Shown here: in pieces, positions 4,556 to 14,044 of the stretch
How the letters are laid out: the number at the start of each line of letters is the position of its first letter
Numbering within the stretch: the first letter of the stretch is position 1
NCBI GenBank assembly: GCA_903891755.1
Contig: CAITFY010000022.1
Span: 1 to 39,139 of the forward strand
Direction: 5' to 3'
From: an uncultured Actinomycetes bacterium
GTDB lineage: Bacteria > Actinomycetota > Actinomycetes > Nanopelagicales > Nanopelagicaceae
Length of the DNA stretch: 39,139 nt
Program-made: the position numbers and the translations under genes
Notes under the pieces: generated by a model
Databases searched by the model: none
What the model was told of the DNA's origin: nothing
What the model saw: only the letters and a program-made list of their open reading frames with translations

Positions 4556-4999
4556 ATGAAACTCATCCTTACTCGTGAAGTTGCAGGACTCGGACAAGCT
4601 GGCGACGTTGTAACCGTTAAAGATGGTTACGCACGCAACTTCCTCGTACCAAATGGCAATGCAATTGCATGGTCACTCGGTGGAGAGAAGCAGATCGAAG
4701 GAATTCGCCGCGCACGTAGTGCACGAGAGATTCGCGATCTTGATCATGCCCGCGAAATCAAGGCAGCTTTGGAGGGCGCTCCAATAGTTGTGAAGGCAAA
4801 GGTTGGCGCAACAGGCTCACTCTTCGGTTCAGTCACCGATAAGGACCTCATTGCAGCAATCAAGTCATCAGTCGGAATTGATATCGACCGCCACCGTTTG
4901 AAGGCCCCTGCTATGAAGAAGCTTGGTAACTACACCGCCAAGGTAAACCTTCATGCCCAGGTTGCTGCCAACATTCAGGTTCAGGTAGTCGCTGCTTAA
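4556..4999 (+). CDS. rplI: 50S ribosomal protein L9
   Basis: A 147-residue L9 starting MKLILTREVAGLGQAGDVV, followed by the signature KDGYARNFLVPNGNA. The long central helix and the C-terminal RNA-binding domain (SVTDKDLIAAIKSSVGIDID) are both present at normal family length. ATG 4556 lies 12 nt after rpsR and has AAGGAG upstream. It is the last gene of the rpsF cluster and is followed by an intrinsic terminator. Confidence 0.98.
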   Translation: MKLILTREVAGLGQAGDVVTVKDGYARNFLVPNGNAIAWSLGGEKQIEGIRRARSAREIRDLDHAREIKAALEGAPIVVKAKVGATGSLFGSVTDKDLIAAIKSSVGIDIDRHRLKAPAMKKLGNYTAKVNLHAQVAANIQVQVVAA

Positions 5000-5013: not shown

Positions 5014-5047
5014 AAACCCCGCCTCCTATGAGACGGGGTTTTCTCAT
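5014..5047 (+). terminator. Intrinsic terminator after rplI
   Basis: AAACCCCG (5014-5021) pairs with CGGGGTTT (5034-5041). After one mismatch the stem continues as CTC/GAG with a 4-nt loop. A T-rich tail (TTTTCTCATTT) follows. It should end the ribosomal-protein transcript and so separates it from dnaB. Confidence 0.85.
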
Positions 5048-5071
5048 TTATTGAGATTCCAAAATAATTCT

Positions 5072-5208
5072 TTATCCCCAGCCTTGTGGGTGAAATTGAG
5101 CGTGAATTAGCTGGAAAAGGGAGATCTATCCCCAGACTGGGGCTAGTTACCCACAGTGCCTCCACACCGAAACCCAGGTTATCCCCAGCAATACAAAGGT
5201 TTCCCACA
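5072..5208 (+). promoter_or_regulatory. Cluster of five DnaA-box-like 9-mers upstream of dnaB
   Basis: Five same-strand 9-mers resemble the DnaA box TTATCCACA: TTATCCCCA (5072-5080 and 5179-5187), CTATCCCCA (5126-5134), TTACCCACA (5147-5155) and TTTCCCACA (5200-5208). Their starts are 54, 21, 32 and 21 nt apart, close to whole helical turns, so all would face the same side of the DNA. Each has one or two mismatches to the E. coli consensus. DnaA binding is inferred. Confidence 0.45.
5126..5146. repeat. 21-bp near-perfect inverted repeat in the dnaB upstream region
   Basis: CTATCCCCAG-A-CTGGGGCTAG is symmetrical around A5136 with a single mismatched pair. It looks like an operator for a dimeric regulator, and each half also contains a DnaA-box-like sequence, one on each strand. 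It is not followed by a T-run, so termination is unlikely. Confidence 0.45.
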
Positions 5209-5258
5209 CCAGGGCGCACATGCCACCCTAAGAAAAATAGGGAATGTCAGTTGCCCGT

Positions 5259-5265
5259 AAGAGGA
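5259..5265 (+). promoter_or_regulatory. Shine-Dalgarno (AAGAGGA) that decides the dnaB start
   Basis: AAGAGGA ends 8 nt before GTG 5274. The alternative upstream ATG at 5244 has only TAGGGA directly against it, which is too close to act as a ribosome-binding site. Confidence 0.6.
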
Positions 5266-5273
5266 TTACGCCC

Positions 5274-6674
5274 GTGAGCATCGCAGAGTTACCCAATCGC
5301 GGAAATAACAATCTGCCTGCCCGTCCCATTGAATTCGAGCGGACCCCTCCACAAGATTTAGTCGCAGAACAATCTGTTCTCGGCGGAATGTTGCTCTCCA
5401 AAGATGCAATTGCCGATGTTGTAGAGATTATTAAAGAGCGAGATTTCTATCGCCCAGCACACGAACTTATCTATGATGCAATTCTTGATCTCTATGGCCG
5501 TGGAGATCCTGCTGATCCCGTCACTGTCGCCGCTGAGTTAACAAAGCGCGGCGATATTGCACGAGCAGGTGGCGCCCCATATTTGCACACCCTTATCTCC
5601 TCTGTGCCAACCGCAGCTAATGCAGGTTACTACGCACGCATCGTTCGCGATCGCGCAATCTTGCGTCGACTTGTCGAAGCGGGTACCAAGATTGTTCAAC
5701 TTGGATACTCAGAGGCCGGTGATGTTGATGATGCAGTTGATGCAGCGCAAGCCGAGGTTTACCAGGTAACAGAATCTCGAATGACTGAAGATTATGTGCA
5801 GCTCTCTGAATTACTTCCCGCCGCACTCGATGAGATTGAAGCTATCTCCTCTGGTGTTGCCGAAGAGGGCGTGAAGAGTGGATTTAGAGATCTTGATGCA
5901 CTCACTAATGGATTCCACCCAGGCAACATGATTGTTCTTGCAGCGCGTCCTGCGGTTGGTAAATCAACACTCGGCCTTGATATTGCGCGTTACGCATCAA
6001 TTCACAAAGGCGATACCTCTGTAATCTTCTCACTTGAAATGAGCCGATCTGAGATCACGATGCGCATGCTCTCTGCTGAAGCAAAGGTTGGCTTAAACAA
6101 TATTCGTTCCGGATCACTCTCTGATGATGAGTGGGGTCGTTTAGCAAAGCGTATGGGTGAGATTTCACAAGCCCCGCTCTTCATCGATGATTCACCAAAT
6201 CTTTCGCTGATGGAGATTCGCGCAAAGGCTCGTCGTCTCAAGCAACGTCACAATCTCAAACTCATTGTTATCGATTACTTACAGCTCATGACTTCCGGTA
6301 AGCGCGTTGAGAGCCGTCAACAGGAAGTATCTGAGTTCTCTCGTAACCTTAAATTGCTCGCCAAGGAACTCAATGTTCCAATTATCGCAATCTCGCAGCT
6401 CAACCGTTCTCCAGAACAGCGCGCAGATAAGAAGCCGATGCTCTCTGATCTCCGTGAATCAGGCTCAATCGAACAAGATGCAGATATGGTTATTTTGTTG
6501 CACCGCGATGATTTATATGACAATCAAAATCGTTCCGGCGAGGCTGATTTAATCGTGGCTAAGCACCGTAATGGTCAGACCCGCACAATTACCGTTGCAG
6601 CCCAACTCCACTTTGCACGCTTTGCAGATATCGCTCCCGCTTATAGCGGCGGCGAAAACTTCGTAAAGGATTAA
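5274..6674 (+). CDS. dnaB: Replicative DNA helicase DnaB
   Basis: Hexameric 5'-3' helicase that unwinds the fork ahead of DNA polymerase III. The N-terminal DnaG-interacting domain (FERTPPQDLVAEQSVLGGM onward) is followed by a linker and a RecA-like ATPase with Walker A ARPAVGKST, Walker B LIVIDYLQLM, the QQEVSEFSRNLK stretch and SDLRESGSIEQDAD. From GTG 5274 it has 466 residues, the usual length; no intein interrupts it, unlike several mycobacterial homologues. ATG 5244 would add ten residues but has no properly spaced ribosome-binding site. It is transcribed apart from the ribosomal genes and is preceded by DnaA-like boxes. Identity is certain; the start is inferred. Confidence 0.97.
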   Translation: MSIAELPNRGNNNLPARPIEFERTPPQDLVAEQSVLGGMLLSKDAIADVVEIIKERDFYRPAHELIYDAILDLYGRGDPADPVTVAAELTKRGDIARAGGAPYLHTLISSVPTAANAGYYARIVRDRAILRRLVEAGTKIVQLGYSEAGDVDDAVDAAQAEVYQVTESRMTEDYVQLSELLPAALDEIEAISSGVAEEGVKSGFRDLDALTNGFHPGNMIVLAARPAVGKSTLGLDIARYASIHKGDTSVIFSLEMSRSEITMRMLSAEAKVGLNNIRSGSLSDDEWGRLAKRMGEISQAPLFIDDSPNLSLMEIRAKARRLKQRHNLKLIVIDYLQLMTSGKRVESRQQEVSEFSRNLKLLAKELNVPIIAISQLNRSPEQRADKKPMLSDLRESGSIEQDADMVILLHRDDLYDNQNRSGEADLIVAKHRNGQTRTITVAAQLHFARFADIAPAYSGGENFVKD

Positions 6675-13720: not shown

Positions 13721-13752
13721 TTTTCCACAGGGTTTATCCACGATGTGGAGAA
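13721..13752. promoter_or_regulatory. Three DnaA-box-like sequences between the response regulator and crgA
   Basis: TTTTCCACA (13721-13729, plus), TTATCCACG (13734-13742, plus) and TTCTCCACA (13744-13752, minus strand) each match TTATCCACA at eight of nine positions. They sit within 32 bp in the 150-nt spacer upstream of the response regulator. DnaA binding is inferred, not shown. Confidence 0.4.
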
Positions 13753-13786: not shown

Positions 13787-14044
13787 TTAGCGCCAGCGGG
13801 TGGCCAAGGTGAAGCCAAAACCGATGAAGCCAAAACCGATGACCATATTCCAAGCCCCAATATGAGGGACTGGATAGCTGGTGTTGCTTACATAGTAGAT
13901 AACAATCCAGACCAAGCCGATAAGGAAGCCGGCAAGCATCGCGGGAGCGAGCCACTTTGGGCTCTCCTTAGGAAGTGGCGCGTGATGGGCGACCTCATCC
14001 GGAATGTAGACCGGATCCTTCTTGCGGCTCTTGGACTTAGGCAT
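13787..14044 (-). CDS. crgA: Cell-division protein CrgA
   Basis: An 85-residue protein with the family pattern: a basic start MPKSKSRKK, a cytoplasmic stretch, a first membrane helix (WLAPAMLAGFLIGLVWIVIY), a short outer loop and a second helix ending RWR. CrgA is an actinobacterial divisome protein that recruits FtsI and other late factors and helps time septation. A longer reading frame exists upstream, but the canonical MPKSK start at 14044 has TACCTT six nt ahead. The gene lies beside trpG and pknB as in Mycobacterium. A perfect 15-bp tandem repeat encodes part of helix 2. Confidence 0.92.
   Translation of the reverse strand: MPKSKSRKKDPVYIPDEVAHHAPLPKESPKWLAPAMLAGFLIGLVWIVIYYVSNTSYPVPHIGAWNMVIGFGFIGFGFTLATRWR
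13811..13840. repeat. Perfect 15-bp tandem repeat inside crgA
   Basis: GAAGCCAAAACCGAT occurs twice in tandem (13811-13825, 13826-13840). It is in frame and encodes the IGFGF IGFGF stretch of the second CrgA membrane helix. The helix keeps normal family length. Confidence 0.85.

Follow-up and report, generated by a model that had tools for sequence, protein, structure and literature searches.

The DnaA boxes between rplI and dnaB in this actinomycete probably form a cis-regulatory DnaA-binding element of dnaB, one predicted from its sequence to act on a leaderless promoter of the PafBC type. The window analysed, 39,139 bp, is contig C22 of an incomplete genome of 1.27 Mb. Direct observations were made of the sequence, its conservation, the orientation and phase of the boxes, their phase lock to the promoter, and the presence of PafBC genes. 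Binding of DnaA upstream of dnaB is already known in mycobacteria; what is new here is that the array is strictly helical in its spacing and keeps a constant register with a promoter of the DNA-damage type.

Organisation of the rplI-dnaB region

The gene order is rpsF-ssb-rpsR-rplI, followed by a terminator, about 230 bp of non-coding sequence and dnaB. The whole intergenic region is 274 bp, and the hairpin at its start sets the array apart from the rpsF-ssb-rpsR-rplI operon. Boxes were scored with a matrix built from 218 oriC boxes of 23 genus members. The features are as follows.

4556..4999, plus strand: rplI (ribosomal protein L9), the upstream neighbour; NCBIfam TIGR00158
5015..5042, plus strand: terminator-like hairpin and T run 3' of rplI, from the sequence
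5042..5056, no strand: dyad TCTCA-N5-TGAGA, whose two arms vary little or not at all among 11 close relatives
5072..5080, plus strand: DnaA box 1, TTATCCCCA; oriC-derived matrix and conservation
5096..5106, plus strand: TTGAGCGTGAA, conserved, in either orientation in relatives
5126..5134, plus strand: DnaA box 2, CTATCCCCA; matrix and conservation; left arm of a 21-bp inverted repeat
5147..5155, plus strand: DnaA box 3, TTACCCACA; matrix and conservation
5158..5166, plus strand: weak box, GCCTCCACA
5179..5187, plus strand: DnaA box 4, TTATCCCCA; matrix and conservation
5200..5208, plus strand: DnaA box 5, TTTCCCACA; conservation; its first base is 45 bp upstream of TGTCAG, a distance shared by many relatives
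5212..5220, plus strand: box-like GGGCGCACA, partly conserved with a poor matrix score; doubtful
5245..5266, plus strand: PafBC-type (RecA-independent DNA damage) promoter, TGTCAG-N10-GAGGAT
5274..6674, plus strand: dnaB; NCBIfam TIGR00665; start GTG 5274 conserved in relatives; probably leaderless

An earlier note on this DNA had placed five same-direction 9-mers at 5072, 5126, 5147, 5179 and 5200. These positions are exact and all five are on the plus strand. The note did not mention the weak box at 5158, nor did it notice the box-like sequence at 5212 or the promoter (5245-5266). The 9-mer at 5158 counts as a weak sixth box because its TCCACA (5161-5166) is invariant in close relatives and it starts 11 bp after box 3.

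Conservation and taxonomic breadth

In 11 close relatives, the bases of the boxes are 98% identical and those of the spacers 71% (Mann-Whitney p=1e-14), with 87% of box columns and 20% of spacer columns invariant. The 21-bp inverted repeat at 5126-5146 that the earlier note described does exist, with 9 of 10 positions paired. As a functional dyad it was rejected, its right arm varying freely in the close relatives; two further stretches of the window also pair as inverted-repeat arms. No known binding protein suggested itself for the conserved dyad at 5042-5056 or for TTGAGCGTGAA at 5096-5106. The latter was also considered as a widespread site and rejected, occurring at 13 places in 5 genomes without a clear theme.

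Boxes were counted in the 400 bp upstream of dnaB, as observed and in shuffled sequence. The genus averages 4.3 boxes (4.22 forward and 0.11 reverse) against 0.59 after shuffling, and across its 27 members about 114 boxes point forward and 3 in reverse. For 21 further members of the class Actinomycetes the figures are 3.6 against 0.58. Other classes of the phylum (n=25) have 0.8 against 0.36, with a local excess in a few. Arrays are found in named genomes of Streptomyces, Cellulomonas, Nonomuraea, Microbacterium, Arthrobacter, Nocardioides and others, while Sediminivirga, Nesterenkonia and Frankia have one box or none. Among the named genomes checked, there were no boxes upstream of dnaB in Clostridia or Desulfuromonas, and one reverse match in Chloroflexia. 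The array is directly upstream of dnaB, conserved in the class and mostly missing from other classes, its distance from the start codon being variable outside the family.

Two public MAG records are titled Bifidobacterium breve (L258 and L259), and their DnaB shares 81-82% identity with the DnaB of the present lineage. For Bifidobacterium asteroides (L316) the figure is 56%; the two names look wrong.

Helical spacing of the boxes

The earlier note had called the spacings of 54, 21, 32 and 21 bp near multiples of 10.5. Within the window, comparison with random spacings gives modest support for this (p=0.015), and over 15 diverged relatives, those with less than 55% alignable identity over the region, the support is very strong. 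At the three stricter score cut-offs, all spacings of up to 65 bp in these relatives are 10-12, 21-22, 32-33, 43-44, 53-54 or 64-65 bp. The best period is 10.7-10.8 bp, with R of 0.92-0.95, which no jittered set out of 5000 equalled; since the relatives share descent, such p-values are generous and overstate independence. In the remainder of the class, R is 0.77 at a period of 10.5-10.7 bp. The lattice is common to the lineages and the slots that are occupied differ among them. At oriC, changes of spacing by part of a turn are harmful and a whole turn is tolerated (PMC4285127), which is the pattern seen in the spacings of the dnaB array. It is thus a natural case in which helical phase has been kept while whole turns were gained or lost.

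Same-strand boxes at oriC are also phased, less sharply. Phasing alone therefore points to co-operative DnaA binding and not to regulation.

The dnaB promoter and its register with the array

The sequence TGTCRG-N10-NANNNT is present upstream of dnaB in 26 of 27 genus members, where 0.11 would be expected, and in all but one of the 26 it lies 28-29 nt upstream of the conserved start codon. The mycobacterial PafBC motif is TGTCGG or TGTCAG, ten bases, TA, three bases and T (PMC8151990). The promoter in the window agrees with it in TGTCAG, the spacing, the A and the final T, and differs in the first base of the -10 element, which is G rather than T here and C in many relatives. This -10 element is seven bases before GTG 5274, implying a leaderless message, and dnaB probably starts at that codon. 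The ATG at 5244 in the open reading frame list was rejected as the start, since it falls within the promoter and a single base there differs in relatives.

The array is phase-locked to this promoter. In nine diverged genus members R is 0.94, and none of 20000 random shifts was as good. Distances from box to TGTCRG of 45, 66, 77, 88, 98, 119, 142 and 173 bp recur.

Probable control of dnaB by DnaA

Pull-down sequencing in M. tuberculosis and ChIP-seq in M. smegmatis place DnaA upstream of dnaB, at one of five strong mycobacterial DnaA sites (PMC7738170). A DnaA I282T mutant has less binding there and under-expresses dnaB (PMC7738170). The site in the M. tuberculosis Rv0057 region and its M. smegmatis homologue share with the present array the gene, the position and the oriC type of the boxes (PMC7738170). 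They differ in that binding was demonstrated in vitro and in vivo in the mycobacteria, and is deduced from sequence here, in a lineage of small genomes; the helical lattice and the promoter phase lock are described for the array in this work.

The reading of the earlier note that is best supported is co-operative binding of DnaA controlling dnaB, given boxes of the oriC type, a single orientation, a conserved helical phase and the lock to the promoter, together with the mycobacterial binding and mutant data (PMC7738170). DnaA would bind head to tail along one face of the helix, to all five strong boxes and to one or more weak ones. The bound molecules would contact each other and act on RNA polymerase at the PafBC-type leaderless promoter. 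With a predicted transcription start near GTG 5274, the box centres would be near -70, -91, -123, -144 and -198, and such upstream positions on a single face suit an activator. Judged from one mycobacterial mutant and the predicted start, the effect of the array on dnaB is most likely activating. The supply of helicase would then follow the level or activity of DnaA, and PafBC could additionally raise the dnaB promoter on DNA damage.

Outside oriC, E. coli datA and the box clusters described close to the Streptomyces origin are multi-box sites as well, described as sites of titration or DnaA inactivation, whereas the dnaB array is read as a control element. The array could likewise be a reservoir for titration or control of DnaA-ATP, upstream of dnaB by happenstance and without dnaB as its target. 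It is kept by the class, and its several boxes are about 20 kb from dnaA in those genus and family relatives whose genomes are complete or in long contigs, as a reservoir might be. This explanation is unlikely. The array is in phase with the dnaB promoter, something that pure titration would not need and that argues against a site with titration as its sole role; it accompanies dnaB in the class as a whole; and dnaB expression drops in M. tuberculosis when DnaA binding is reduced (PMC7738170). Alongside the control of dnaB, the array may also titrate DnaA.

Control of dnaB by DnaA would account for a non-coding element that is conserved across the class and lies close to oriC. It also enables a sharp and cheap test of DnaA as a phase-dependent transcription factor acting on the helicase that it later loads.

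Identity of the boxes

The 218 genus oriC boxes include TTATCCACA (79), TTACCCACA (32), CTATCCACA (27), TTCTCCACA (21), TTATCCCCA (16) and TTTTCCACA (15). No DnaA domain was found in the present assembly. At its end, contig C88 carries an apparent 3' portion of dnaA and then dnaN, and the gap between the two contains TTATCCACA, TTACCCACA and two copies of TTTTCCACA. The variants in the array are also those of oriC in this genome and its relatives; the clear difference from the true oriC boxes that the earlier note said would refute its reading was not found.

The CCCCA variant makes up three of the five array boxes and is commoner there than at oriC, where TTATCCCCA is 16 of 218. This enrichment, and the two additional conserved motifs within the array, would fit conserved TCCMCA repeats bound by a protein other than DnaA. 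Such a protein is very improbable, as identical variants are present at the genus oriC and DnaA binds the corresponding place in two mycobacteria (PMC7738170).

That the array is itself a second or ancestral replication origin can hardly be maintained. Its box types and phasing are those of oriC, both having head-to-tail steps of 10-12 bp and multiples of these. However, the genome has its own oriC between dnaA and dnaN on a different contig, and the array has neither gene among its neighbours, no evidence of unwinding and a link to a promoter. The GC skew, which the earlier note had suggested checking in cumulative form, has no inversion at 5 kb. The earlier note was therefore right to disfavour an origin, and identity with the chromosomal oriC was rejected.

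Chance C/A-rich repeats are scarcely credible as an explanation: 9-mers within two mismatches of TTATCCACA are common across the window, 119 against 101 expected, which is little signal, but the phylogenetic footprint refutes chance and the rplI-dnaB region has six matrix matches against 0.25 expected, with none of 2000 shuffles having as many. Five of the ten top matrix matches in the 39-kb window are in the array. More than one box is found in just two of the ten intergenic regions of the window, this one included; the others are less dense, and the equal density of 9-mers named by the earlier note as a refutation is thus absent from the window. Genome-wide, a strict box pattern occurs 25 times and 21 times in the reversed control, so it is the cluster that carries the signal and single boxes carry little.

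PafBC-like genes and promoters in the lineage

The genome encodes a PafB/PafC-like pair as adjacent WYL genes on contig C8, one of which matches PF19187 (HTH_PafC, E=9e-29). This pair (L115, G000:C8:12500-17500) adjoins two genes, one for a methyltransferase and one for an FKBP-type isomerase that has two FKBP domains; the 5-kb piece showed no proteasome gene.

In M. tuberculosis, dnaB is partly PafBC-dependent (PMC8151990). The lineage has in common with the mycobacterial system the TGTCRG-N10-xAxxxT promoter and the PafB/PafC-like pair, and differs in the first -10 base and the leaderless start (PMC8151990). It also differs in recA: other members of the class, serving as a positive control, have the full motif before this gene, and the present genus does not. 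The motif does precede other repair genes of the lineage, namely RmuC, a DEDDh exonuclease and a DUF6504 gene. The bare pattern is not enriched in the genome itself (6 against 7). Its leaderless form occurs 48 times against 13 in the reversed control in three relatives, and 10 against 8 in the genome itself.

At L205:1531-1914, the start of the DUF6504 gene overlaps an SOS-box-like TTCGAACATATGTTCGAA, with a PafBC-type promoter before it and a DnaE-like frame after it. In three genomes of the family (L197, L203 and L184), a Cys-rich protein of 56-69 amino acids follows a PafBC-type leaderless promoter; the L197 copy has no Pfam match.

It is possible, and we suggest it tentatively, that the dnaB region is a composite element common to the actinomycetes, in which DnaA, assembled head to tail on the helical lattice and phase-locked to a PafBC promoter, helps to set the helicase supply. 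The initiator and a sensor of single-stranded DNA would then govern this supply together. Among the papers searched, none names PafBC and DnaA boxes together. The joining of DnaA control with the PafBC damage response is also open to testing.

A second cluster of DnaA boxes

The window has a second cluster of DnaA boxes at 13721-13752, just downstream of crgA (13787-14044, minus strand). It consists of TTTTCCACA on the plus strand and a near-perfect palindromic pair, TTATCCACG-A-TGTGGAGAA. In M. tuberculosis, crgA is presumably Rv0011c. A DnaA site between Rv0010c and Rv0011c is a two-box palindrome (PMC7738170). Of the five DnaA sites in mycobacteria, two therefore have counterparts in the window, namely the dnaB array and the palindrome beside crgA. 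A matching dyad, with up to three mismatches, follows crgA in six of about 29 relatives (L227, L235, L238, L239, L241 and L254), a patchy distribution.
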